Positions 1,934 through 49,869 of a stretch of 60,422 nt of DNA are shown in pieces. The translations under genes were made by a program, and so were the position numbers. Positions within the stretch are counted from its first letter, which is position 1; the number at the start of each line of letters is the position of its first letter. Origin of the DNA: a bacterium (lineage in GTDB: Bacteria > Armatimonadota > Zipacnadia > Zipacnadales > UBA11051); contig JAUVVY010000026.1 in NCBI GenBank assembly GCA_030604405.1, positions 1-60,422 of the forward strand, in the 5' to 3' direction. The notes beneath the pieces were generated by a model. That model was given only the letters and a program-made list of their open reading frames with translations, made no database searches and was not told where the DNA came from.

Positions 1934-2094
1934 GGCACTCGCGGGCTGGAAGCTGAGAATGCTAATGCATTCTCACCTGAGCTTTGCAGAACGAGCAAAG
2001 CTCAGGCCGCGCTACGCGACGTGAAATAATCCGCGCTAGGTCGAGAAGACCAGGATAAGCAGTACCAAGCGACGCGGAGGTGATCGGACAGATC

Positions 2095-2919
2095 ATGGTA
2101 AGCGAAAAGCTGGAAATGTATCAGGAGCTGGCGACAAAGATACGTGCCCACTGCCTGCGCATGACGCATCGGGGCATGAGCGGGCACCTGGGCAGCATGT
2201 TGTCCATGGCGGACATGCTCGCGGTGCTGTACACCAGTATCCTGAAGGTTGATCCGGAGAATCCTGAGTGGGACGAGCGGGACCGCTTCGTGCTCAGCAA
2301 GGGCCACGGTGGGGCAGCCGTCTATGCAGTGCTGGCGGAAAAGGGCTTCTTCCCGATGGAGTGGCTGAACACGTACTATCTGGATGACGGTAAGCTGTCC
2401 GGGCACATCAGCCACCACGTGCCGGGAGTGGAGTTTTCCACAGGATCGCTGGGACATGGGCTGCCGGTGGCAGTAGGCATGGCGCTGGCAGCCAGGAATG
2501 ACGGCAAGCAGCACCGGATCTTCTGCCTGATGAGTGACGGCGACTGTAACGAGGGCTCGACCTGGGAGGCGCTGATGTTCGCCGCCCACCACGAGCTGGA
2601 CAGCCTGATAGTGATAGTGGACTACAATCGGGTGCAGGCCCTGGGCAAGATGGCAGACGTTATCGAGATGGAGCCGTTTGTCCCGAAGCTGGAACTGTTC
2701 GGCTGGAGCGTGCGAAGCATTGACGGGCACGACTGCGAGCAGCTAGAAGCAACGCTGTCCGAAGTGCCGTTCGAAAAGGGCAGGCCATCGTGGGTGCTGG
2801 CCAGCACCACCAAGTGCAAAGGTGTCAGTTGGCTGGAGGACACGGTCGGCAGTCACTACGGATGTGTCAATGACGAAGAGCTGGCGGCGGCGCTAGCCGA
2901 GCTTGGGGTGTCAAAATGA
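2095..2919 (+). CDS. Transketolase, N-terminal (TPP-binding) subunit
   Basis: About 274 residues, the size of the N-terminal half of a split transketolase. It carries the thiamine diphosphate motif GDCNEGSTWEA...VDYN and the conserved SKGHGGAAVYA and GSLGHGLPVAVGMA stretches. With its partner at 2916 it should transfer two-carbon ketol units between sugar phosphates, or do related TPP chemistry. ATG 2095 is preferred over GTG 2080 because GGAGGTGAT (2077-2085) is a near-perfect ribosome binding site about 10 bases upstream. Its stop overlaps the next ATG by four bases (ATGA), indicating translational coupling. Split transketolases often sit in dedicated sugar or secondary-metabolite operons rather than serving the core pentose phosphate route, which fits the E1 and aminotransferase neighbours. 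Confidence 0.92.
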   Translation: MVSEKLEMYQELATKIRAHCLRMTHRGMSGHLGSMLSMADMLAVLYTSILKVDPENPEWDERDRFVLSKGHGGAAVYAVLAEKGFFPMEWLNTYYLDDGKLSGHISHHVPGVEFSTGSLGHGLPVAVGMALAARNDGKQHRIFCLMSDGDCNEGSTWEALMFAAHHELDSLIVIVDYNRVQALGKMADVIEMEPFVPKLELFGWSVRSIDGHDCEQLEATLSEVPFEKGRPSWVLASTTKCKGVSWLEDTVGSHYGCVNDEELAAALAELGVSK

Positions 2920-3833
2920 GAAGCGCATTCAACGAAGAGCTACTGAAGATCGCCAAGGCAGACGACCGCATATACATGGTGCTTGCCGACATCGGCTACG
3001 GCGAGATCGAGCCATTCGCGGAGGCATTTCCGGACCGGTTCTACAACTGTGGAGTGGCCGAGCAGAACATGACCGGGGTCGCGTGCGGCCTGGCTATGGA
3101 AGGCAAGATCGCCGTCACCTACTCGATCGCAAATTTCCCGACTCTCCGATGCCTGGAGCAGATTCGCAACGATGTCTGCTACCACGACCAGAACGTGAAG
3201 ATCGTGATCATCGGAGGCGGCCTGGCATACGGATCGCTGGGGGTATCCCACCACTCCACCGAGGACATCGCCATCATGCGGTCGCTGCCGGACTGTGTGG
3301 TGGTGTGCCCGGCGGATATCCCGGAAGCGAGGGCCGCGACCTATGCCATGATCGAGCACGAGGGGGCGTTCTACTACCGCTGCGGCTATAAGCAGGAGCC
3401 CGATCTTCACCAGGGCAAGATTGACTTTGAGCTCGGCAAGGCGATCGAGGTGTGCGACGGCTCAGATGTTACACTGATAGGGACCGGGACAGTGACCTAC
3501 AGGGCCTGGCAGGCGGCAGAGCTGCTGGCCGGCGAGGGCATCAAGGCCCGCGTAATCAGCATGCACACCGTCAAGCCGATCGACAGAGAAGCGATTGTCG
3601 CGGCGGCCAGGGAGACCGGAGCAATCGTGACCGTGGAGGAGCACAACATCTGCGGCGGTCTGGGGGGCGCAGTGGCCGAAGTAATTGCCGAGTCCGGAAT
3701 GGGCATAGGCTTCAAGATGATCGCCCTGCCGGATGAGTATGTGCACATAGTCGGGACCCACGAATGGCTGCTGGACTACTACGGCTTCTCGCCGGAGGGG
3801 ATTGCGGGGAGTGTGGTGGAGCTGTTGGCGTAA
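2916..3833 (+). CDS. Transketolase, C-terminal subunit
   Basis: 305 residues covering the pyrimidine-binding and C-terminal domains of transketolase. The FYNCGVAEQNMTGVACGLA stretch holds the conserved glutamate that activates the TPP pyrimidine ring, and the C-terminal domain has the TVEEHNICGGLGGAVAE motif. It overlaps the N-terminal subunit gene by four bases, so the two are made together and form the active enzyme. It ends 241 bases before the E1 alpha gene, in a gap filled by two palindromic repeats. Assignment is firm; the sugar substrates cannot be read from sequence. Confidence 0.93.
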   Translation: MRSAFNEELLKIAKADDRIYMVLADIGYGEIEPFAEAFPDRFYNCGVAEQNMTGVACGLAMEGKIAVTYSIANFPTLRCLEQIRNDVCYHDQNVKIVIIGGGLAYGSLGVSHHSTEDIAIMRSLPDCVVVCPADIPEARAATYAMIEHEGAFYYRCGYKQEPDLHQGKIDFELGKAIEVCDGSDVTLIGTGTVTYRAWQAAELLAGEGIKARVISMHTVKPIDREAIVAAARETGAIVTVEEHNICGGLGGAVAEVIAESGMGIGFKMIALPDEYVHIVGTHEWLLDYYGFSPEGIAGSVVELLA

Positions 3834-4074: not shown

Positions 4075-5046
4075 ATGAAACCGACCGAGCAGCAAATGAA
4101 AGAGATGCTGCGGACAATGCTGACGATCCGCGGCTTCGAGCAGACGGCCTGCGCGCTGTATATGGACAACTGGGAGAGCGGCAACTTCTTGGGCGCGCTG
4201 CATTCTTACGAAGGCCAGGAGGCGGTGGCCACCGGCGCGTGCGCGTGCCTGCGGGATGACGACTACGTCTTCAGCACCCATCGCGGGCACGGGCATTTCA
4301 TCGCCAAGGGCGGGGATGTGAAGGCGATGTTCGCGGAACTGCTGGGCAAGGAAGCCGGGTGCAGCCGCGGTCGCGGCGGCTCGATGCACATGTTCGATCC
4401 CGAAAAGGGCCTGATGGGCGGTAACGGAATAGTCGGCGGCGGGATCCCACTGGCCCTCGGCCCCGCCTTCGCCGCTAACTACCGTGGCACCGACCAGGTT
4501 ACGGTATCGTTTTTCGGTGAGGGCGCGTCCAGTCAGGGCGTGTTTCACGAGTCGTTGAACCTGGCGGCGCTGTGGGACCTGCCGTTGATCTTCGTGTGCG
4601 AGAATAACCGCTACGCTGTGGGGACGCCGGTATCTCAGGGCATCTCGGTGCCCAACGTATCAGTTCGTGCGGCCGGCTACGGCTGCCCGGGAGTGACGGT
4701 GGATGGCGACGACCCGGTGGCCGTCTATGAGGCGGTCAGTGAGGCGGTGGCCCACGCGCGCGCGGGTAACGGCCCGAGCCTCGTCGAGGCCGTGACCCAC
4801 CGCTACAGCACGCACTGTATGGTCATGCAGGAAGGTCGCGAGCAGAGCGAACTGGACGAAATGAACGAGCACGACCCGATCCCAAGGTTCGAACAGTATC
4901 TGCAGGAAAACGGGATCATCAGTGCCGACGAAGTACAGGCGCTGAAAGGAGAAGTAAGCCAGCTCATCGAGGAGGCCGTGGCGTTTGGTGAGGACGCCCC
5001 CTTCCCTGATCCTGCGACGGTCGCCGACGGTCTGTGGGTGAGCTGA
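4075..5046 (+). CDS. 2-oxoacid dehydrogenase E1 component, alpha subunit
   Basis: 323 residues, typical for PDH/acetoin dehydrogenase E1 alpha. The TPP and metal motif runs from FFGEGASSQGVFHESLNLA to ENN; the usual GDG is GEG here. HRGHGHFIAKG, the GRGGSMHMF loop and the C-terminal HRYSTHCM region are also present. It should decarboxylate a 2-oxoacid with the beta subunit encoded next (25-base gap after the stop at 5046) and pass the acyl group to a lipoyl domain. The only lipoyl protein in the window is the E2-like gene at 11437, which has no acyltransferase core. Pyruvate, acetoin or branched-chain 2-oxoacids are all possible substrates. A second, more divergent E1 alpha lies at 17036. Confidence 0.92.
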   Translation: MKPTEQQMKEMLRTMLTIRGFEQTACALYMDNWESGNFLGALHSYEGQEAVATGACACLRDDDYVFSTHRGHGHFIAKGGDVKAMFAELLGKEAGCSRGRGGSMHMFDPEKGLMGGNGIVGGGIPLALGPAFAANYRGTDQVTVSFFGEGASSQGVFHESLNLAALWDLPLIFVCENNRYAVGTPVSQGISVPNVSVRAAGYGCPGVTVDGDDPVAVYEAVSEAVAHARAGNGPSLVEAVTHRYSTHCMVMQEGREQSELDEMNEHDPIPRFEQYLQENGIISADEVQALKGEVSQLIEEAVAFGEDAPFPDPATVADGLWVS

Positions 5047-5091
5047 ACAGCCGCAGGCCGTATCGTTAGCGTGAGAGGAGAACTCAAAGCA

Positions 5092-6066
5092 TTGGCAAAC
5101 ATGCGAGAAGTTGTGTTGACGCGAGCGCTCAATGAAGCGCTGCACGAGGAGTTCAAGCGCGATGACAACGTATTTCTGGTCGGTGAGGAAGTAGGCGGGG
5201 TCTTTGGTGTGACGAGGGGTCTGGATCGGCGCTTCGGTGACAAACGGGTGCGCTGCACACCGATCTCAGAGGCGGCCTTTACCGGATTGGCGGTGGGCGC
5301 GGCGGTGGCGGGCCTGCGGCCCATCGTCGAGATCATGTACCTGGACTTCGTGACGGTGTGCTGGGACCAGATCGCCAACCAGGCGGCCAAGCTGCGCTAT
5401 ATGTCCGGCGGGATACTAAAAATGCCGCTCGTCATCCGCGGCCAGCAGGGCAACCTGAGCCGCGAAGCCGCCCAACATTCGCAGCAGATCGAGGGCTGGT
5501 GCGCCCAGGTGCCCGGGCTGAAGGTGGTGATGCCGGCCACGGTGGAGGACGCCAAGGGCCTGCTCAAGTCGTCAATCAGAGAGGACAACCCGGTCATATT
5601 CGTGGAGCACCGGGGATTGTATGGCCTCAAGGGCCCGATGCCCAGGGGCGAGTACACCACTCCGCTTGGTGTGGCCAAGGTGCAGCGAGAAGGCAGCGAC
5701 ATCACCGTTGTCGCCACGTCGGTCGCAGTCCAGAAATCGCTGGGGGCAGCGGAGAAACTGGCCGGCCAGATCAGCGTGGAGGTGGTTGACCCGCGCACGC
5801 TGGTGCCGCTGGATACGGAGACGATCCTGGCATCGGTGCGCAAGACGGGCAGGCTGCTGGTGGTTCACGATGCACCGGTACGGCTGGGGTTCGGGGCTGA
5901 AGTGGTGCGCGCTGTGACCGAAGAGGCCTTCGATGCTTTACAGGCAGCACCCCGCGTAGTCGGCGGGGCCAACCTGCCGATGCCGTACAGTTCGGTGCTG
6001 GAAGACGCTTGCATCCCCAGCGAAGACGATATCACGCAAGCCATTAAACAGGTGGTGGAAAGCTAA
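5092..6066 (+). CDS. 2-oxoacid dehydrogenase E1 component, beta subunit
   Basis: About 325 residues with the transketolase-like pyrimidine-binding domain, including TPISEAAFTGLAVGAA with the activating glutamate, followed by the C-terminal domain (VEVVDPRTLVPLD). It pairs with the E1 alpha just upstream. TTG 5092 is chosen because AGAGGAGAA (5074-5082) lies about 9 bases upstream; ATG 5101 is an equally plausible start, and GTG 5071 would overlap the ribosome binding site. The stop TAA touches the ATG of the aminotransferase gene at 6067 with no gap, so E1 alpha, E1 beta and aminotransferase form one operon. Confidence 0.92.
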   Translation: MANMREVVLTRALNEALHEEFKRDDNVFLVGEEVGGVFGVTRGLDRRFGDKRVRCTPISEAAFTGLAVGAAVAGLRPIVEIMYLDFVTVCWDQIANQAAKLRYMSGGILKMPLVIRGQQGNLSREAAQHSQQIEGWCAQVPGLKVVMPATVEDAKGLLKSSIREDNPVIFVEHRGLYGLKGPMPRGEYTTPLGVAKVQREGSDITVVATSVAVQKSLGAAEKLAGQISVEVVDPRTLVPLDTETILASVRKTGRLLVVHDAPVRLGFGAEVVRAVTEEAFDALQAAPRVVGGANLPMPYSSVLEDACIPSEDDITQAIKQVVES

Positions 6067-9931: not shown

Positions 9932-10217
9932 AAATGACATCGCCAACCATGTTACGGTGATGATCCCTGAGCCGCTGCGGGCCTATACGGATGGGCAGGC
10001 GGAGGTGAGCGTGCAGGCCGGCACCGTGGGCGATGTGCTGTACCAGCTTGTCAGCCAGTACGAAGAGATCGGGAAGCGAATAATTGACGAATCGGGAGGG
10101 CTGCGACACGGTGTGATAATTGCCGTTAACGGGCAGGACATCCGATTTGCCGGGCACCTGCAAGCTCCGGTGCGGCCCGGCGAGCAGGTCCAGATCGTCG
10201 TTACAATGCTGGTGTAG
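9924..10217 (+). CDS. MoaD/ThiS-fold small protein lacking the C-terminal Gly-Gly
   Basis: 97 residues with the ubiquitin-like beta-grasp pattern: VTVMIPEPLRAYTDGQAEV, then the TVGDVLYQLVSQYEEI helix, VIIAVNGQDI and PVRPGEQVQIVV. MoaD and ThiS end in Gly-Gly, adenylated and thiocarboxylated for sulfur transfer; this protein ends in VTMLV, so it cannot be activated that way unless trimmed, and no Gly-Gly lies near the end. ATG 9924 is used, overlapping the oxidoreductase gene by 8 bases; a GTG at 9918 is possible. No MoaE, ThiF or ThiG partner is nearby. It may act as a beta-grasp subunit of an oxidoreductase. Confidence 0.78.
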   Translation: MSENDIANHVTVMIPEPLRAYTDGQAEVSVQAGTVGDVLYQLVSQYEEIGKRIIDESGGLRHGVIIAVNGQDIRFAGHLQAPVRPGEQVQIVVTMLV

Positions 10218-10284
10218 GAAACAATTCCCGCTCCGTTGCGTCGAAATAGATAGGAATTCGACATCGAGATATGGAGACGGCTGG

Positions 10285-11436
10285 ATGCGTGTAAGACGCT
10301 TCATCATAGTCGCATGTGTGTTGGCATTGGTCCTCAGTGCCAGCTCGGCGCTGGCGAAGAGATGGTCTGAGGAGCAGGAGAATGCTGTCGGTGCCGAGGT
10401 TGCCGCACATATTGAGGAGCAGTACGAAGCGTGGGAGGACGAGGATGCGCAAAAACAGATCGAGGAGATCGTCACCGAGCTGGCCCCGTACACCGACCGT
10501 CAGGATGTCAAGTATATCGTGAAGCTGCTGGACACCGATGAGGTCAACGCCTGCAGCATACCCGGCGGCCGGATATACGTTCACCGCGGACTGCTCGAGG
10601 AGGTCGAGTCGGTGGACGAGCTGGCCGCGGTGATGGCGCACGAGATCGCCCACAACTGCACTTACGACGCGATGGAGCAGGCCGAGCGCAATAAGAAGCT
10701 CTTTATCGGGGGTATCACGGCAGCGCTGGTGGCGATATTCGTCGGCGCGGACAGCAGCGAAATATCGGGTGTTCTGGCCGCCGGCATGTATGTGCGGCAG
10801 GGGATTCTCAGCCGCTACTCGATCGAAATGGAGCAGCGGGCGGATATGAACGCCGTCCGGTACCTGGTGGGCAGCAAATACAACCCCACGGGGCTGCTGA
10901 CCTTTATGGAGCGGCTGGCGGCCGAGACATACAAGAGGGCGCGCCCGGACTACGGCATATACGAAACGCATCCGCAGTCAACAGAACGGTGTGGATACAT
11001 CATCGAGGCCATCTATGACGCCGGGCTGGAGATCAATCGCCGTGCGGTAACCAAGTGGGAGCCGCCCAGCTTTGAAAGCATCGGGCCTGAAGATGCTGAA
11101 ATAGACCCCCAGACAGCGCCGGCGAAGATATCGCTGTGGGGTGAAGAGATAGTGACGATAACTTATCCCGGCGAATACCCCGGCATAGACAAGCGGGCGG
11201 AGGCCATCTGCAACAACCTCAGGGAAGCGCTGGCGGCCGACCTGGTGCTCTACGAGATACGCACAGCCACGGACGGTGAGGCCGTGACCGTCACGCTGCG
11301 GGACAAGCCGATGATGAGAATCTGTGCCGAGGACGTGCAATCAGAAGACAGCTCACCGCAGGCTGTGGCCGACGGCATCGTCAGGGCGCTGGCAAGAGCC
11401 ATGCACCGCGAAGAGCTGGCGCGGCGGTATCACTAG
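10285..11436 (+). CDS. M48-family zinc metalloprotease, secreted or periplasmic
   Basis: About 383 residues from ATG 10285. Residues 1-24 form a signal peptide (RRFIIVACVLALVLSASSALA). The zinc motif HEIAH is at about residues 119-123 and the third ligand is expected in the glutamate of EMEQRADMNAVRYL. It resembles BepA/LoiP-type soluble M48 peptidases that handle misfolded envelope proteins; there is no TPR tail as in BepA. The C-terminal 110 residues are unassigned. The upstream extension to 10120 overlaps the MoaD-like gene and lacks a signal sequence, so it is not used. Its stop abuts the ATG of the lipoyl-domain gene, which places a protease oddly inside a metabolic operon. Confidence 0.87.
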   Translation: MRVRRFIIVACVLALVLSASSALAKRWSEEQENAVGAEVAAHIEEQYEAWEDEDAQKQIEEIVTELAPYTDRQDVKYIVKLLDTDEVNACSIPGGRIYVHRGLLEEVESVDELAAVMAHEIAHNCTYDAMEQAERNKKLFIGGITAALVAIFVGADSSEISGVLAAGMYVRQGILSRYSIEMEQRADMNAVRYLVGSKYNPTGLLTFMERLAAETYKRARPDYGIYETHPQSTERCGYIIEAIYDAGLEINRRAVTKWEPPSFESIGPEDAEIDPQTAPAKISLWGEEIVTITYPGEYPGIDKRAEAICNNLREALAADLVLYEIRTATDGEAVTVTLRDKPMMRICAEDVQSEDSSPQAVADGIVRALARAMHREELARRYH

Positions 11437-11943
11437 ATGGGGCAGCGCATTACCATTGAAAAGTGGGCCGAGAACCTCGAGGAAGTCACGGTTGCCGGTT
11501 GGCTGAAAACTGAGGGCGAAGAGATCGCCGCCGGCGAAGTGCTGTGCGAAATCATCACCGATAAGGCCACCTTCGAGTACACCGTTGAGGAGGGCGGCGT
11601 GGTCGCCAGGATATACGCCGCCGAACGCAGTGTGGTGCCCATCGGCTACGTCATAGCCTTTGTCGCCAGTGCCGGCGAGCAGGCAGACCCCGACATCGAG
11701 GCGCACAACGAGAAGCTGCTTGCCGAGCGCCGGCAGCAGGCGGAACTGGACCTCGACGACGTTCTCTCAGCGGCCAGCAAGAAGACTTCCCGGGTGCGTG
11801 CAACCCCGGCGGCACGGCGGCTGGCGCGCCAACATGAGATTGACCTGCAGCAGGTTGCCGACTGGCTCAGCGAGGACGCGGACGTCATTACGGAAGAGCA
11901 CGTGCAAGGATATCTAAGCGACAAAGGTAGCGGCAATGATTGA
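11437..11943 (+). CDS. Lipoyl-domain plus E1/E3-binding-domain protein without E2 catalytic core
   Basis: 168 residues. Residues 1-78 are a lipoyl/biotinyl domain with the swinging-arm lysine K43 in [10 protein letters not shown] charged linker follows, and residues about 118-160 form a peripheral subunit-binding domain ([19 protein letters not shown]). The 230-residue acyltransferase core with its HXXXD motif, present in every ordinary E2, is completely missing, and the gene ends with a proper stop overlapping the SDR gene by 8 bases. It is therefore a free lipoyl carrier that can dock an E1 or E3, and not a remnant broken by a frameshift. Known counterparts are PDHX/E3-binding protein and stand-alone lipoyl proteins. 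Candidate partners are the E1 genes at 4075-6066 and 17036; no lipoate ligase or E3 is in the window. Confidence 0.88.
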
Positions 11944-12682
11944 CCTGAGCGGCAAGGTGGCGCTGGTGACCGGCGGCTCGCGAGGGCTGGGCCGCGCAAT
12001 CGCGGTGCAGCTCGCCGAAGTTGGCGCGGATGTTGCAGTCAACTATCTGCAAAACGCCGAAGCGGCTGAGGAGACCGGCAGGCTTATCGCCGAGCAGGGG
12101 CGGCGCTTCATCGTGTGCCAGGCGGATGTGACCGCCCGCGAGGGCGTCAAGGCAATGGTGGAGCAGGTGGCGGAGGAGTTGGGCGGGCCGGATATTGTAG
12201 TCAGCAACGCCGGAATAATCAGCGACCAGTTTCTGGCCTTCATGAAGCCCGAGCAGTGGGAAAGCGTGATTGAGACCTCGCTGACCGGCGCGTTCAACTG
12301 CTGCCAGGCGGCGTTGCGGCCGATGATGAAAAAGCGCTGGGGGCGCATTGTCAATATCGCTTCCGACGCCGGCTTGATGGGCGATCTGCGGCGTACCAAC
12401 TACGCTGCTGCGAAGGGGGGCCTGATAGCCTTCACCAAGGCGCTGGCGCGCGAGGTCGTGGGTCAAGGCATCATGGTCAATGCGGTGGCGCCGGGTGTCA
12501 TCGAGACCGACCTGATCGCCGACATGACCGAGAAGCAGCGCGAGCAGATGTATCAATTGATTCCGGCCGGCAGGTTCGGCCAGCCTGAGGAAGTCGCCCC
12601 GCTGGTGGCATTTTTGTGCTCGGAGCAAGCCAGCTACATCACCGGCCAGGTCTTCAGCGTTGACGGCGGGCTGCGGATGTAG
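11936..12682 (+). CDS. Short-chain dehydrogenase/reductase, FabG-like
   Basis: 248 residues of the classical SDR type. The NADP-binding [10 protein letters not shown] is at residues 12-21, NAGI at about 91, the catalytic serine in NIASDAG (143), and YAAAK at 156-160; the C-terminus SVDGGLRM is typical of FabG. It would reduce a 3-oxoacyl thioester or related ketone. The gene overlaps the lipoyl-carrier gene by 8 bases, a strong sign that the two products work on the same intermediate, and ketosynthase-fold genes follow at 14606 and 16038. Confidence 0.92.
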
Positions 12683-12738: not shown

Positions 12739-12895
12739 GTATGAGTGGATAGAAGCAATTCACCTCTGCGACGGGATCGCATGCGTTACCCTAAACGCAC
12801 ATCCTCGCGTACCGATTTGCCACCAGGGCTACCGCTGTTTGTTATTGCTCCCCTAGCAGTTGTATTCAGTCACGCAACGGGAAGGGAAGGATATC

Positions 12896-13553
12896 ATGCC
12901 GGGGCGTAATCGGTTTCTTGAGGGCCTGCAGCGGGTCATGCGCGCCTTCGCGCCAAGCGAAGAGAATTTCTTTGAATTGTTTGAAGAGATTAGCGACCAC
13001 GTCGTGGAGGCAGCGGAATGTCTGCACGACATCATGGGCCGCTATGAGAGGCTCCCACTGGCTGTGGAGAAGATTGACGACATCGAGCACGCCGCAGACA
13101 ACGTGGTGCACGAGGCGGTCAGGCGCCTTAACACTACCTTCGTCACGCCCGCCCTGTTCGACCGCGAGGACATCTATCGCATTGTCGAGCGCCTGGACGA
13201 CATCGTGGATCAGACCAAGGGCGCAATAGACAGGCTGAGCCTGTTTAACATTGCCGAGCCGACCGACCGCTGCCGCGAGTTGGCCGACTTGTTTCTAGAG
13301 ACGGCCAAGGCCCTTCAGGCCAACATGCACAACATCGCCGACATTCAGCCTCAACAGGACAAATATGTGGCCGAGATTAACACTCTGGAAAACCAGGCCG
13401 ATGTGGTACACAGAGCCGCACTGAGCGAACTGTTCGAGTACGAAGGCGAGCCGCGTTACATAATGAAGTGGCTGCTGGTTTATCAGTTCGTCGAGGGCGC
13501 GATTGACGGATGCGAAGGGGCCGCCAACCTCGTAGAGGCCGTGGTGGTGAAGA

Positions 13554-13561
<8 letters not shown>
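12896..13561 (+). CDS. DUF47-family (PhoU-like) protein of phosphate uptake
   Basis: About 221 residues, nearly all helical, with the DUF47/YkaA pattern FFELFEEISDHVVEAAECL...EHAADNVVHEAVRRLNTTFVTPALFDREDIY. DUF47 proteins are PhoU relatives that bind metal clusters through acidic and histidine residues and modulate a partner PiT transporter, encoded here with an 8-base overlap. ATG 12896 has the GGGAAGG site just upstream; the longer TTG start at 12860 is unlikely. Placement between the FabG-like and ketosynthase genes looks like an insertion of a self-contained phosphate module. Confidence 0.92.
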
Positions 13562-14582
<1,021 letters not shown>

Positions 14583-16037: not shown

Positions 16038-17039
16038 GTGAGAAGTGCATTGTCTGAGAACCAGCGCGTAGTAATCAGCGGGGCCGGGCCGATTGCATCG
16101 GTCGGCATCGGACGCAAGGACTTTCTGAAGGGCTTGCGCGAGGGCCGAGTGGGTATCGGCGCCTGCGAACGGCTGACAGATACTGCCGGCTTCGCGGAGG
16201 TGGCGGAGTGCTGGGACTTCGCAGTCGAAGACTATCTGATCAGCAAGAAGACCTACCTGGACCGCTGCTCGGAGCTGGCGCTGGCGGCCTGCGCGCTGGC
16301 CTTCGCAGATGCGGGACTGGTCTGGTCGGAACTGGACGGGGACCGGATCGGCCTGTGCCTCGGAACCGCATACGGCTGCCTGGAAGCGCTGACCAATCAT
16401 AGCGCGCGCGTGCAGACCAAGGGCCTGCGCTTCGGCTCGCCGATGATCTTCACCCATGCAATGGCCAACTCGCCGACGGCGCTGGCGGCCATCGAGTACG
16501 GCATCCACGGGCCCGCAGGCACGTTTTGTGCCGGCAGCATATCAGCGGCCTGTGCGCTGGAATTCGCCTTCCGGCGAGTGAGGGCCGGAGACGCCGACTA
16601 TGTCCTCGCCGGCGGCTGTGAGGCGCTAAGTGTGGCGCTGCTCAGCGGCCTGGCAGGTCCCGATAAGCTTGAGCCAGATTTCGTGCCGGGCGAGGGCGGC
16701 TGCATACTCATGTTGGAGCGCATGGACACGGCGGCCGCCAGAGGCGCTGAAATCCTGGCCGAGGTCGCCAGTGTCGGTCTGGCCGTGGCTACCGAAGCGA
16801 AGCCCGACGCCGCCTTGGACGCCGCATGTCGGCAGGCCGGCCTGACAGACAAGCCGCCGGTATTCGCGGCGCCGGCATACGGGCACACCTTCGGCGCATC
16901 AATGGCTCTGGGTATTTGTGCGGCGATCGGTGGCCTCGACTCATACGCAAGCGGCGATTGCGTAGCTGTGATGGGGCGCAGCAGTCTTAGCGACATCCAT
17001 GGCCCCGCCGCCGCCATCATCATCCGGAGGGTAACATGA
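16038..17039 (+). CDS. Divergent, shortened ketosynthase-fold protein (chain-length-factor-like)
   Basis: 333 residues against about 410 for a normal ketosynthase. The thiolase fold is recognisable from VVISGAGPIASVGIG at the start, and C164 in TFCAGSISAACALEF aligns with the nucleophile. H283 in YGHTFGASMALGICAA aligns with the second histidine, but the NAHGTGT segment with the first histidine is absent, the region reading PPVFAAPAY. It is either a partner subunit like a chain length factor, though those usually lose the cysteine rather than the histidine, or an enzyme with different acyl chemistry such as thioester hydrolysis or acyl transfer. GTG 16038 has AGGAGAAG 11 bases upstream. It overlaps the following E1 alpha gene by 4 bases, so the two are coupled. 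Confidence 0.82.
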   Translation: MRSALSENQRVVISGAGPIASVGIGRKDFLKGLREGRVGIGACERLTDTAGFAEVAECWDFAVEDYLISKKTYLDRCSELALAACALAFADAGLVWSELDGDRIGLCLGTAYGCLEALTNHSARVQTKGLRFGSPMIFTHAMANSPTALAAIEYGIHGPAGTFCAGSISAACALEFAFRRVRAGDADYVLAGGCEALSVALLSGLAGPDKLEPDFVPGEGGCILMLERMDTAAARGAEILAEVASVGLAVATEAKPDAALDAACRQAGLTDKPPVFAAPAYGHTFGASMALGICAAIGGLDSYASGDCVAVMGRSSLSDIHGPAAAIIIRRVT

Positions 17040-18004
17040 GCTATCCAGCCAAAGAGTTGGTTGCGCATTACCGGGCGATGGTCACCATCAGGGAGTTCGA
17101 GGAGGCGCTGGATGAGCTGTTCAGTAAGGGACTAATCGGCGGCACCTCGCATTTTTGCCGCGGCCAGGAGGCGTGCGCGGTGGGAGCCGTCGCGGCGCTT
17201 GAGGCTTCTGACCTGGTGACATCTAACCATCGCGGGCACGGGCATTTCATCGCCAAGGGCGCGGAACTGGGGCGCTTGATGGCTGAGCTTATGGGCAAGC
17301 GTGACGGCTATTGTGGCGGGCGGGGCGGCTCGCAGCACATCGCCGCCTTCGACATCGGCTTTATGGGCTCCAATGGCATAACCGGGGGCATGATACCGGT
17401 CGCGACGGGGGCTGCGCTGACCCAGAAGCTGCAGAAAACCGGCCGCGTCGTGTTGTGCTTCTTTGGCGACGGGGCGTGCGGGCAGGGCGCTTTTCACGAG
17501 GGCGTGAACATGGGCGCGGTATGGGAGCTGCCGGTCGTGTACTTTCTGGAGAATAACCTGTACGCAATGAGCACGCACGTTGCAGAGAGTTTCAAGGTCA
17601 CAGAACTCGCGCAATTTGCCAACTCATACGGCATCCCGGGCATTAGCGTAGATGGCAATGATTACTTCGCAGTGCGAGAGGCCGCCGCAGAGGCTGTTGC
17701 AGAAGCCCGATCGGGAGCTGGGCCGACGCTAATCGAGGCGCGGACCTACCGCATGTGCGGACATTCCAAGAGCGACCAGTGCGAATACCGATCTGACGAA
17801 GAAGAGGAAAGCTGGGCGGCACGGGACCCGCTCCTGGTCATGAAAGGCCGTCTCATTGGCGACGGCATCATGGATGAGGCGAACGCGGCAGCGGTAGAGC
17901 AGCAGGCAGCCGATGATGTTGCAGAGGCTATTGAGTTCGCGGGGCAAGCTGGCGAACCTGACCCCGACACGGTGACAGATGATCTGTTTGCGGATTTTTG
18001 CTGA
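17036..18004 (+). CDS. Second 2-oxoacid dehydrogenase E1 alpha-type subunit, without adjacent beta gene
   Basis: 322 residues similar in layout to the protein at 4075. It has the full TPP motif GDGACGQGAFHEGVN...ENN, SNHRGHGHFIAKG and GGRGGSQHI. It resembles acetoin/pyruvate dehydrogenase E1 alpha and is the sort found in secondary-metabolite operons. No beta subunit follows; the next gene is a repressor behind its own promoter. It may share the beta subunit at 5092 or act with another TPP-domain protein. Four-base overlap with the ketosynthase-fold gene links thioester chemistry and thiamine-dependent decarboxylation. Confidence 0.9.
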   Translation: MSYPAKELVAHYRAMVTIREFEEALDELFSKGLIGGTSHFCRGQEACAVGAVAALEASDLVTSNHRGHGHFIAKGAELGRLMAELMGKRDGYCGGRGGSQHIAAFDIGFMGSNGITGGMIPVATGAALTQKLQKTGRVVLCFFGDGACGQGAFHEGVNMGAVWELPVVYFLENNLYAMSTHVAESFKVTELAQFANSYGIPGISVDGNDYFAVREAAAEAVAEARSGAGPTLIEARTYRMCGHSKSDQCEYRSDEEEESWAARDPLLVMKGRLIGDGIMDEANAAAVEQQAADDVAEAIEFAGQAGEPDPDTVTDDLFADFC

Positions 18005-45890: not shown

Positions 45891-46060
45891 TGGCCGTGGC
45901 CTCTGCGCATATTTCTCGACTCACGCATACATTTTCCTCGCCTATTTTGCACGGTAGAAGGTATCACCGCACGTAGAGCGAAGCTAGCGCCTTGACGCAC
46001 CTGAGACACTCACTACCTCGCACCTGGACACGGGGCATTTCGCCCTACAGGAGGTCACAA

Positions 46061-47089
46061 ATGGAATACAGACAGCTTGGCCGTACCGGAACGCGAGTTT
46101 CAAAGCTCTGCCTGGGGACCATGAACTTCGTCGGAAGCACGGATCTGGACGAGGCAAAACGGATCGTTGATGAGGCAATTGACAGCGGCGTCAACTTCAT
46201 AGACACAGCCGATGTCTATGCCCGGGGCGGCTCCGAGGAGTACCTGGGCATAGCCCTGAAGGACAACGGGCACCGCGACGATGTGGTGGTGGCGACTAAG
46301 GCGGTGGCCACGATGGGCAAAGGCCCTAACGATCACGGCGCCAGTCGCTACCATCTCACCCGCGCCGTCGAAGCCAGCCTCAAGCGCCTGCAGACCGACC
46401 GCATTGACCTGTTCTACCTCCACATCACCGACATCACCACTCCGATTGACGAGATACTCGATACCCTCGATGTGCTGGTGCGGCAGGGCAAGATACTCTA
46501 CCTCGGCACCTCGAAGTGGCCGGTGCCGCTAATCATGGAGCTGCTGGCGCTGAGCGAAAAGGAGGGCCTGCCGCGCACCGTCGCCGAGCAGCCGCCGTAC
46601 AACCTGACCGACCGGCGCATTGAGATGGAACTGGTCTGGACGTGCATGCGTCACGGCATCGGCATCGTGCCATTCGGGCCGCTGGCAGGCGGCATCCTCA
46701 GCGGCGTATATCGCAAAGGCCAGCCGGCCCCCGAAGGCCACAAGTTCAAAGAGATCGGTCAGAGAGACGGCCACAAGCGCTATACCGAAGAGACCATGGA
46801 CCTGGTTGAGAAGCTGATCCCGCTCGCCGAGGCCAGAGGCGTGACGCTCGCCGAGTTCTCAACCGCCTGGCTGATGCAGCGGCCGGGGATTACCGCTCCG
46901 GTAGCGGGTCCGCGTACCGTCGAGCACCTGCGTTCTTCGATCAAGGCATGCGAGATAGAGCTGACGCAGGAGGAGTTGGACAAGGTGGATGAGGCGATCG
47001 CGCCGGGCGGCAATATCACCAACTACTGCACTCTCTACGATCGCATGTGCCGCGCCGTCAACGAAGCCGAGCCGCTGGGGGCTTTCTAA
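46061..47089 (+). CDS. Aldo/keto reductase, copy 1 of 3
   Basis: 342 residues, (beta/alpha)8 barrel of the AKR superfamily (voltage-gated K-channel beta/YajO-like). Catalytic tetrad: D48 and Y53 in FIDTADVYARG, K80 in VVATKAV, H121 in LHITDI. Cofactor NADPH. ATG 46061 has AGGAGGTCACAA upstream, so the longer frame from 45992 is excluded. Residues 86-125 form a block almost identical in sequence to copies 2 and 3. Substrates may be sugar aldehydes or ketones. Confidence 0.93.
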   Translation: MEYRQLGRTGTRVSKLCLGTMNFVGSTDLDEAKRIVDEAIDSGVNFIDTADVYARGGSEEYLGIALKDNGHRDDVVVATKAVATMGKGPNDHGASRYHLTRAVEASLKRLQTDRIDLFYLHITDITTPIDEILDTLDVLVRQGKILYLGTSKWPVPLIMELLALSEKEGLPRTVAEQPPYNLTDRRIEMELVWTCMRHGIGIVPFGPLAGGILSGVYRKGQPAPEGHKFKEIGQRDGHKRYTEETMDLVEKLIPLAEARGVTLAEFSTAWLMQRPGITAPVAGPRTVEHLRSSIKACEIELTQEELDKVDEAIAPGGNITNYCTLYDRMCRAVNEAEPLGAF

Positions 47090-47192
47090 ATGCCGCCAGG
47101 GATTCGCCAGCCTGATGAAGTCAGCTACATCTTGTGCCTGTCCGGGATCGCTGAACAGATCAGGGTTGCCGGGGCGGCGTGACCCTTGACGC

Positions 47193-47729
47193 TTGTTTCT
47201 GGAAGTCAATCTGAGGGAGAAAGAAGAGCTACGTTTGCTCAATCAGACTCTGTCAGAGACCGCGATCCTGGAGGTTTTGCTCTTTGCCAACGGGGCCGTT
47301 GCCCTCGGCCTCAGCATACTGCTCTGGCGGGTTAAGGGCCGCTGGCGATCCGATGTCTGCGTGCAGTATCCTACGCTCACCAGTGTGCGACTGTGCGCTC
47401 GTCTTGTAACCGTTGAGGCGGTGGTGCTAGCGATGCTGCTTGCTGCCTGGGTGCCGCCGTTTCCCACGCAATACCTGTCGCCCTGGCAGGTGTGGCTCGT
47501 CAGGGCTGTGGTAGCCGGGTTGACCATTTACCATTTCAGATGGTTCGTATATGGCGCCGCTAGACCGAGGGAGCTTATAGCAGCATGCGACAGGTGTGGG
47601 CGGCGGCAATGCGAGAAGTATCTCATTCAGTGCGCAGCATTGTTGGCCCTCGGTTGCGTTATGTTCGCAGGCACTGCAGTGACCATTATTATGACGAAGA
47701 TGCTCGCCAACATATTGGGCAGTTCCTAG
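47193..47729 (+). CDS. Hypothetical membrane protein
   Basis: Up to 178 residues from TTG 47193 (a TTG at 47235, after GGGAG and the GAAGAG run, is equally likely). Four hydrophobic segments: residues about 24-44, 66-88, 98-115 and 143-168. The cytoplasmic loop has CDRCGRRQCEK, a possible metal-binding cluster. It is wedged between aldo/keto reductase copies 1 and 2, and the ending is 39 bases before copy 2. No family is recognised, and it may be incomplete at its start. Confidence 0.5.
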   Translation: MFLEVNLREKEELRLLNQTLSETAILEVLLFANGAVALGLSILLWRVKGRWRSDVCVQYPTLTSVRLCARLVTVEAVVLAMLLAAWVPPFPTQYLSPWQVWLVRAVVAGLTIYHFRWFVYGAARPRELIAACDRCGRRQCEKYLIQCAALLALGCVMFAGTAVTIIMTKMLANILGSS

Positions 47730-47768
47730 CGAGTCTCTCAATTACAACGAGAACGGAGGCACATAATC

Positions 47769-48794
47769 ATGGAGTACCGACAGCTAGGTCGTAGTGGCAC
47801 ACGAGTTTCAGAACTTTGTCTCGGCTTGATGATTGACAATTTGACGGATGAGGAGACTTTCATAGCCATCGTCAATGAGGCAATCGATCTGGGTATCAAC
47901 TTCATTGACACCGCCGACTGCTACGGCGCCGGTGAATCGGAGAGGCGCCTGGGCAAGGCGCTGGCGCAAAGCGGCAAGCGCGATGACATCGTCCTGGCAA
48001 CCAAGGCCGTCGCCAATATGGGCGAGGGGCCTAACGACCACGGCGCCAGCCGCTATCATCTCACGCGCGCCGTCGAAGCCAGTCTCAAGCGCCTGCAGAC
48101 CGACCGCATTGACCTGTTCTACCTCCACGTCGTGGACATCACCACGCCGCTGGACGAGATTTTCGGCCAGCTCGACATCCTCGTCAAGCAGGGCAAGATC
48201 CTGTATGTGGGGACCTCGAAGTGGCCGGTGCCGCTGATCATGGAAGGGCTGATGATGCACGAGAAGTACGGCTACCCGCGCCTCGTCGCCGAGCAGCCGC
48301 CGTATAACCTCTGCGACCGCGGCATCGAAAACGAACTGGTCTGGACCTGCATGCGCCACGGCATTGGGTTGTGCACCTGGGCCCCACTGGCCAATGGCAT
48401 CCTCGGAGGCGCTTATCGGAAGGGACAGCCCTTCCCTGAGGGCCACCGCAAGTCATCGGCGGACCCGTCCAAAGACAGCCGCCTCACAAACGAAGCCCTG
48501 GACCTCATCGAGAACTTGATACCGCTCGCGGAGGCCAGAGGCATAACGCTGCCGGATCTGTGTCATGCCTGGATGCTGCAGCGCCCGGGCATCACCGCAC
48601 CGATCATCGGCGCGCGCAAAGTTGAGTACGTCGGGGCGGCGGTCAAGGCCACCGAGATCGAACTGACCCAGGAAGAGCTGGACAAGATTGATGAATTCGC
48701 GCCGCCGGGAAGCGCGGTCAGCAACTACTACGACGGCAACGTCTATGCCCGTATGCGCAATGCCATCAACTCAGACAACCCGCTGGGATACTAG
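47769..48794 (+). CDS. Aldo/keto reductase, copy 2 of 3
   Basis: 341 residues, with the same tetrad arrangement as copy 1: FIDTADCYG, VLATKAVANMG and LFYLHVVDIT. It lacks the MNFGG-type motif after strand 1 (LGLMIDNLTDEE) and has a six-residue insertion (PSKDSRLT) before the last helices. The gene begins 39 bases after the membrane protein gene. The 110-base segment coding for ASRYHLTRAVEASLKRLQTD is nearly identical to those in the other two copies. ATG 47769 follows AACGGAGG. Confidence 0.93.
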   Translation: MEYRQLGRSGTRVSELCLGLMIDNLTDEETFIAIVNEAIDLGINFIDTADCYGAGESERRLGKALAQSGKRDDIVLATKAVANMGEGPNDHGASRYHLTRAVEASLKRLQTDRIDLFYLHVVDITTPLDEIFGQLDILVKQGKILYVGTSKWPVPLIMEGLMMHEKYGYPRLVAEQPPYNLCDRGIENELVWTCMRHGIGLCTWAPLANGILGGAYRKGQPFPEGHRKSSADPSKDSRLTNEALDLIENLIPLAEARGITLPDLCHAWMLQRPGITAPIIGARKVEYVGAAVKATEIELTQEELDKIDEFAPPGSAVSNYYDGNVYARMRNAINSDNPLGY

Positions 48795-48834
48795 ATCATT
48801 AGCCTGATGAAACGTAACACCAGGAGGAAAACTC

Positions 48835-49869
48835 ATGGAGTACAGACAGCTGGGACGCACCGGAACCAGAGTTTCGCAGCTTTGTCTTGGCACGATGAAC
48901 TTCGGCGGCGTCACCGATGAGCCGACCGCGCACCAGATGATTGACGAAGCTCTGGACGCGGGCATCAACTTCATTGACAGCGCCGATTGCTATGGCCGCG
49001 GCGTCTCGGAGGAGTTCATCGGCAGGGCGCTGGCCGAAAACGGCAGGCGCGATGAGATCGTGCTGGCAACTAAAGCCGTAGCACCGATGGGCGAAGGCCC
49101 CAACGATCACGGCGCCAGCCGCTACCACCTCACACGCGCCGTCGAAGCCAGTCTCAAGCGCCTGCAGACCGACCGCATTGACCTGTTCTACCTCCACATC
49201 GTGGACATCACCACACCGATGGATGAGATCTTCGGCCAGCTCGACATCCTCGTCAGGCAGGGGAAGATTCTGTACGTCGGGACCTCGAAGTGGCCGGTGC
49301 CGCTGATTATGGAGGCACTCGCGCTGAGTGAGAAATGGGGTTATCCGCGTATCGTCGCCGAGCAGCCGCCCTATCAACTGTGCGACCGCGGCATCGAGAT
49401 GGAGCTGGTCTGGACCTGCATGCGCCACGGCATCGGCATCGTCCCGTGGGGGCCGCTGGCCTACGGCCTGCTCACCGGCATGTACCGCAAGGACCAGCCG
49501 ATTCCCGAAGGCCACCGCTGGTCAGGTGCCGACCCCGACACCAACAGCCGCTTCACGCATGAGGCGCTTGACCTGGTCGAAAAGCTAATTCCCATCGCGG
49601 AAGGCAAGGGCATTGACCTGCCCGCAATGGCACATGCGTGGCTGCAACAGCGGCCGGGTATCACCTGCCCGATCGTCGGCCCGCGCACCATCGAGCACCT
49701 GCACGCCGCGCTCGCGACCACCGACATCACATTAACGCAGGATGAACTCGACGCTATTGATGAGGCCATCCCGCCCGGCACGTGGGTAAGTGACTTCTAC
49801 TTCGGCAACACCTACGCCCATCTGGTCCGCTCGATCAACGACCCGGAGGACCCGACCGGGTACCACTGA
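48835..49869 (+). CDS. Aldo/keto reductase, copy 3 of 3
   Basis: 344 residues with the AKR tetrad in FIDSADCYGRG, VLATKAVAPMG and LFYLHIVDIT. It starts 40 bases after copy 2 and has AGGAGG before ATG 48835. Copies 2 and 3 resemble each other most, including a PD-N/SR insertion. Tandem, coordinated expression of three reductases suggests catabolism of a group of related sugars or aldehydes. The TGC of the DSADCYG signature replaces the valine found in copy 1. Confidence 0.93.
   Translation: MEYRQLGRTGTRVSQLCLGTMNFGGVTDEPTAHQMIDEALDAGINFIDSADCYGRGVSEEFIGRALAENGRRDEIVLATKAVAPMGEGPNDHGASRYHLTRAVEASLKRLQTDRIDLFYLHIVDITTPMDEIFGQLDILVRQGKILYVGTSKWPVPLIMEALALSEKWGYPRIVAEQPPYQLCDRGIEMELVWTCMRHGIGIVPWGPLAYGLLTGMYRKDQPIPEGHRWSGADPDTNSRFTHEALDLVEKLIPIAEGKGIDLPAMAHAWLQQRPGITCPIVGPRTIEHLHAALATTDITLTQDELDAIDEAIPPGTWVSDFYFGNTYAHLVRSINDPEDPTGYH

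Follow-up and report, generated by a model that had tools for sequence, protein, structure and literature searches.

The stretch of DNA analysed here (the window, 60,422 nucleotides) carries a gene for a small lipoyl protein, which we call LIPO, followed on the same strand by genes for a reductase, a ketosynthase (KS), a KS-like protein (KSlike) and the alpha subunit of a 2-oxoacid dehydrogenase (E1-alpha). The features on which the argument draws are listed below by their coordinates in the window.

4075-6066, + strand: second E1-alpha/E1-beta pair, not orthologous to the cluster genes; its E1-beta is 46-50% identical to cluster E1-betas
10120-11436, + strand: M48 peptidase, directly upstream of LIPO, which it adjoins in this genus only
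11437-11943, + strand: LIPO (proposed mini-E2), stand-alone protein with a lipoyl domain and a peripheral-subunit-binding domain (PSBD), identified from Pfam matches, a 30-ortholog alignment and an AlphaFold2 model
11936-12682, + strand: FabG-type 3-oxoacyl-ACP reductase of the SDR family (TIGR01830, 295.3 bits against a cut-off of 297.75), adjoining LIPO in most relatives
12860-14582, + strand: PhoU-like and PiT phosphate transporter genes, inside the cluster, between FabG and KS in L035/L036
14606-15832, + strand: KS with a Cys-His-Lys-His active site, in a clade of its own beside the KS-alpha of type II polyketide synthases (PKS)
16038-17039, + strand: KSlike, a KS-fold partner without the active-site Cys, resembling CLF/CYF proteins and fused to KS in one relative (P0002)
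17036-18004, + strand: cluster E1-alpha, ThDP-dependent 2-oxoacid dehydrogenase, 54-71% identical to cluster orthologs

The LIPO reading frame is intact and encodes 168 amino acids, with an ATG directly 3' of the stop codon of the M48 protease gene and its last 8 bases shared with the beginning of the FabG gene. Its best Pfam matches are Biotin_lipoyl (PF00364, E = 2.3e-10, 40.6 bits, cut-off 22.1) and E3_binding (PF02817, E = 4.5e-7, 30.4 bits, cut-off 23.7), the latter covering only model positions 1-21 of 36, so that the second half of this domain is divergent in sequence. Neither the 2-oxoacid_dh core (PF00198) nor GCV_H was detected in the protein by Pfam. LIPO thus has the lipoyl domain with a modifiable lysine and the PSBD of an E2 on a chain without the catalytic core; it stops at residue 168, past the docking domain, with no counterpart of the non-catalytic E2-like core of the E3-binding protein (protein X), and its docking domain separates it from glycine cleavage H protein and sulfur-oxidation lipoate-binding proteins, which are of the GcvH type without such a domain. 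The AlphaFold2 model (mean pLDDT 93.5) consists of a lipoyl beta-barrel (residues 1-80), a long charged helix (86-114) and three helices at the place expected for the docking domain. A PDB structure search with the whole model, informative on the lipoyl domain but hardly so on the docking region, matched the barrel at Z 12 to pyruvate dehydrogenase lipoyl domains (e.g. 3crk_C, Z 12.0, rmsd 1.5 over 82 residues). In an alignment of 30 orthologs Lys43 (ITDK motif) is invariant, and lipoylation is predicted at this residue. The docking motif P-x-A-R-R-x-A-R (residues 121-131) is nearly invariant in the same orthologs, and its arginines may correspond to those that contact E1/E3 in the docking domain of Bacillus stearothermophilus. 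The genome encodes LipA and a candidate E3 (37% identical), and LIPO is its only lipoyl-PSBD protein. A biotin carrier paralog on another contig (G000:C54, L002 1240-1689) has EALR in place of EAMK and so lacks the biotinylated lysine, as do paralogs in several related genera (L136, L138, L141).

About 40 of 61 related genomes encode an ortholog of about 160-180 amino acids. When 84,980 species genomes were scanned for the pattern, 46 loci came back, and the titles of nearly all of them name Armatimonadota (or WS1, Zipacnadia) or Planctomycetota; one match, with 88% identity, comes from Candidatus Zipacnadia of the phylum Armatimonadota (L164), as do many others. Conservation of LIPO as a protein on its own extends across Armatimonadota and to some Planctomycetota. 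Five planctomycete loci (L200, L202, L204, L205, L207) encode lipoyl-PSBD proteins of about 165 amino acids in another setting, without KS genes, two of them (L200 and L202) with an AcpS-like gene nearby. The initial annotation, made from the letters and open reading frames of the window, had described a stand-alone lipoyl and docking-domain protein without an E2 core and had held that it was not a truncated pseudogene; the Pfam matches, the structural model and the orthologs confirm the first statement, and the second is borne out by orthologs that end past the docking domain in about 40 of the 61 genomes. That LIPO is a truncated or frameshifted E2 gene can be dismissed as next to impossible, given that length and C-terminus are kept in about 40 genomes and that no core follows the gene: the frameshifted acyltransferase core that would have spoken against the annotation is absent from every downstream frame, the sole 2-oxoacid_dh domain of the genome lying on a different contig (C72).

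The order LIPO-FabG-KS-KSlike-E1alpha(-E1beta) recurs within the genus, the order and the class, and is found again in distant Armatimonadota (L194, L208) and in a planctomycete (L191), where two GT4 glycosyltransferase genes lie upstream of LIPO; a Brocadiaceae contig (L199) has LIPO-KS-KSlike. Linkage to SDR and KS genes, to which the initial annotation had pointed, is therefore present and conserved between phyla. The complete set of twelve genes is contiguous in one relative (L048), in the order LIPO-FabG-KS-KSlike-E1alpha-E1beta-GT2-ACP-hydrolase-hydrolase-GT4-GT4, and most of it is present in L043, L047/L268 and L053, while L269 and L274 have the set from KS onward without LIPO and FabG. 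The two alpha/beta hydrolases that come after the acyl carrier protein (ACP) gene are similar to exosortase-associated hydrolases 1 and 2. In the genome studied here the set is split, its second half (E1beta, GT2, ACP, hydrolase, GT4s) lying on contig C53. The E1beta on C53 is 70-74% identical to the E1betas of Armatimonadota clusters and only 48% identical to the E1beta in the window (5071-6066), and is thus the cluster copy. The partners of LIPO differ from those of pyruvate dehydrogenase. A study of genomes assembled from sediment metagenomes for this class describes mostly fermentative anaerobes, and more than half of the genomes in it encode pyruvate:ferredoxin oxidoreductase (PMC10290634), so that there is no obvious call for a pyruvate dehydrogenase as the source of acetyl-CoA.

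The PhoU-like and PiT genes between FabG and KS were seen in this genus only and in none of the other loci, and are probably unrelated to the cluster. Near E1-alpha, in the family that we number f5, inspection of the sequence by eye suggested a methyltransferase-like gene (L050 14171-14884, L251 5378-7624) and a ceramidase-like gene (L054 15800-17128, L251 5378-7624). Elsewhere in the window, a split transketolase pair (2080-3833) precedes the second E1-alpha/E1-beta pair, and three tandem paralogs resembling aldo/keto reductases (MEYRQLGR...GTRVS), judged from their translations, occupy 45992-49869. A repeat of the type CTTCGACAAGCTCAG is dispersed over positions 215-59098 in 11 copies with at most 2 mismatches, against 0.14 expected by chance. 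Rfam gave no matches between 9900 and 18200.

The KS retains Cys163, His303, Lys335 and His340 (FabF residues) in all 16 cluster sequences compared, whereas KSlike lacks the active-site Cys in 16 of 16, with S, D, A or other residues at position 163 rather than the Gln of a chain length factor (CLF). Each forms its own clade in the tree (support 0.92 for KS and 1.0 for KSlike), that of KSlike being separate from CLF. KSlike is predicted to fold as a shortened KS (pLDDT 86.5), and its top Foldseek match is the ishigamide KS/CLF entry 6kxd, tied with FabF entries. The two proteins form one continuous reading frame of 756 amino acids in a relative (G006; P0002, L039 6262-8532), which supports the reading of the pair as a heterodimer. 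The best match of the cluster ACP is AmcB, the ACP of cispentacin biosynthesis, in four of four sequences (68.0 bits, below the equivalog cut-off of 80). We considered two further arguments and dropped them. Loss of the FabF patch for ACP docking was not kept as evidence for a different carrier: about half of the patch is also missing in KS-alpha controls taken from Streptomyces clusters that do depend on ACP, and the loss is only partly distinctive of the cluster KS. Replacement of ACP by the lipoyl arm was rejected, because both the complete clusters and contig C53 have an ACP gene past GT2.

LIPO and KSlike are also associated across genomes. Among the 61 related genomes, many of them fragmented metagenome assemblies and with counts uncorrected for phylogeny, both genes are present in 37, LIPO alone in 3, KSlike alone in 3 and neither in 18; they often occur together even when on different contigs or otherwise unlinked. 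All three genomes with LIPO alone are cut by contig ends near KS, and of the three with KSlike alone one is cut by a contig end, one is 59% complete and one has a doubtful ortholog. Counting of KS genes in five genomes without LIPO (G005, G008, G018, G021, G030) found in each only the two ordinary, primary FabF genes.

In 2-oxoacid dehydrogenases, the lipoyl arm receives the acyl group that E1 (alpha2beta2, ThDP) makes, and either E1 or E3 is bound at the docking domain. From sequence evidence we propose that LIPO is a mini-E2: E1 would acylate its lipoyl arm, and the acyl group would then serve as primer for the KS/ACP module and not be passed to CoA. We give this interpretation an even chance. 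The docking domain of LIPO would hold E1 (or E3); E1-alpha/E1-beta would decarboxylate a 2-oxo acid and load the acyl group onto the lipoyl arm; and the arm would hand it to KS and KSlike, or else to the ACP of the cluster, rather than to an E2 core and CoA. KS may then condense the delivered acyl group with malonyl-ACP and FabG may reduce the product to a 3-hydroxyacyl-ACP, while the LIPO arm would be reoxidised by E3 (lipoamide dehydrogenase). The hydrolase and glycosyltransferase genes downstream point to a product that modifies a glycan or is linked to one, and these enzymes might move the 3-hydroxyacyl group onto it; this is the weakest step of the scheme. Since the cluster has no E2 core and has a KS pair, an ACP and a reductase in its place, transfer of the acyl group to KS or ACP is the economical reading. 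The more specific version, in which the lipoyl-docking protein would pass the acyl group directly from the ThDP-dependent E1 to the active-site Cys of KS (or to ACP) and KS/KSlike would replace the E2 core, is put forward tentatively.

The main alternative arises from a gene on contig C72, which the initial annotation could not have seen:

G000:C72:3598-4344 (L008 3595-4344): 2-oxoacid dehydrogenase acyltransferase core of 249 amino acids, stand-alone, the genome's only 2-oxoacid_dh

This core was found by a search for 2-oxoacid_dh over the whole genome (4.37 Mb, 96.9% complete), and its presence makes a split E2 a live rival: the lipoyl and docking domains of LIPO would work in trans with the C72 core as an ordinary dehydrogenase producing acyl-CoA, with which the KS genes would be primed. 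We regard this as rather unlikely. It would account for a genome in which the only 2-oxoacid_dh is a stand-alone core and the only lipoyl-PSBD protein is LIPO, and the core, which is conserved across the order, accompanies LIPO in 30 of 30 genomes of the same order (the copy in G007 is a fragment at a contig end, for which reason we dropped that genome as a case of LIPO without the core). Moreover, in the E2 reaction the pantetheine thiol of CoA attacks the acyl-lipoyl thioester, and ACP bears the same thiol; the C72 core could thus also transfer the acyl group to ACP, which keeps the split E2 alive. The core is, however, present in genomes in which neither LIPO nor another stand-alone lipoyl-PSBD protein was found (e.g. 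G005, G008, G018, G053) and so does not depend on LIPO: six genomes at least 90% complete have the core without LIPO (G005, G008, G018, G019, G021 and G053, with the reservation that LIPO may be cut off in G019). In G053 the core lies directly before E1alpha-E1beta (L161 7929-10582), where no lipoyl-PSBD protein was found. Conversely, G054 (96% complete) has LIPO and KSlike with no 2-oxoacid_dh detected. LIPO and the core are never neighbours in the core loci of 20 relatives. LIPO is associated with KSlike at p = 1e-9 and with the core at p = 0.002 over all genomes, and within the order at p = 3e-5 against 0.07 (not significant), values that are descriptive only as the genomes are kin. Full-length E2s stand in place of the stand-alone core in G046, G049, G059 and G060.

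Two other readings of the cluster are less probable. The cluster E1 and LIPO might make acyl-CoA or a free acyl group by way of an unrelated acyltransferase (e.g. a hydrolase), with KS, KSlike and FabG using another starter; the two hydrolases after ACP offer candidates for such an enzyme, but the KSlike and E1-alpha genes are adjacent and here overlap (17036-17039), which suggests a shared step, and we consider this reading improbable. The initial annotation had suggested a mobile carrier of acyl groups or electrons. Lipoyl proteins can carry electrons and the docking domain can bind E3, so that LIPO could be imagined as a redox carrier whose dithiol works with E3 or another flavoprotein; its conserved partners, however, handle acyl groups, and no oxidoreductase besides FabG and E1 is linked to it, which makes this role very improbable. 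We found no evidence for the electron half of the suggestion, while an acyl carrier is the best reading of LIPO because its conserved neighbours include an acyl donor (E1-alpha/E1-beta) and acyl acceptors (the KS pair and ACP).

If the proposed priming from the lipoyl arm is true, oxidative decarboxylation on that arm would add a third route to the two, CoA/FabH and ATP-dependent ligation, by which the starter of a type II polyketide-like synthase is loaded, and a lipoyl-docking module could be uncoupled from its E2 core and re-used. The genes would also represent an apparently undescribed acyl-glycan cluster in uncultured Armatimonadota and Planctomycetota. Searches of the open-access literature for lipoyl proteins with ketosynthases or type II polyketides found no relevant system, and those for exosortase with ACP and glycosyltransferases found nothing; the probable hand-off of an acyl group from E1 through LIPO to KS or ACP was not described in the open-access literature searched.

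LIPO shares a lipoyl domain with a DKA motif, a linker and a PSBD with E2s (AceF, SucB, Bkd E2) and protein X, the latter (1zy8_K) aligning over LIPO residues 10-139, but it has neither a catalytic nor a structural C-terminal core and its gene sits with KS, FabG and ACP genes. The KS pair resembles the KS-CLF of type II PKS in joining an active KS (Cys-His-His and Lys) to an adjacent partner without Cys; in contrast to CLF, KSlike is about 75 residues shorter, falls in a separate clade and has no Gln at position 163. The hydrolase pair, related to TIGR03100/TIGR03101 and placed beside glycosyltransferases, recalls hydrolases 1 and 2 of exosortase A (PEP-CTERM) systems, although the cluster proteins score below the curated cut-offs.

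Closer parallels are found in two systems that extend 2-oxoacid-derived starters. In the cispentacin pathway the starter is a 2-oxo acid, which an adenylating enzyme attaches to AmcB and which is extended by a KS paired with a degenerate partner (PMC10698177). The cluster resembles this cispentacin/coronafacic type of KS-CYF system (AmcB, AmcF, AmcG, AmcH) in its KS, the degenerate KS-like partner of that KS and an ACP like AmcB, but the match to the AmcF model (219.4 bits, cut-off 325), like that to AmcB, stays below the equivalog level, and KSlike is a shortened Cys-less KS fold for which no AmcG model appeared in NCBIfam for comparison. In L048 and L268, no ligase gene corresponding to AmcH, the 2-oxoglutaryl-ACP ligase, lies between the genes identified; in contiguous clusters E1-alpha/beta and LIPO stand in the place of this adenylating enzyme, which implies that the 2-oxo acid loses CO2. 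The BkdABC system of Photorhabdus is a branched-chain 2-oxoacid dehydrogenase whose product is a 3-oxoacyl thioester, and its BkdB component includes an ACP domain that requires a phosphopantetheinyl transferase (PMC4578411). The system supplies the branched-chain starter for isopropylstilbene and photopyrone and is thus a precedent for coupling such a dehydrogenase to chain extension. The gene set described here appears compatible with primer supply of this type, in which the product of a 2-oxoacid dehydrogenase is extended by a linked KS; compared by description, it differs in that the lipoyl-docking protein and ACP are separate, the partner of KS lacks the Cys and glycosyltransferase genes come after. 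No known systems come closer than Photorhabdus BkdABC and the AmcB-F-G-H genes of cispentacin: the cluster belongs to none of the families compared and has the gene set of neither of these two, but shares parts with both.
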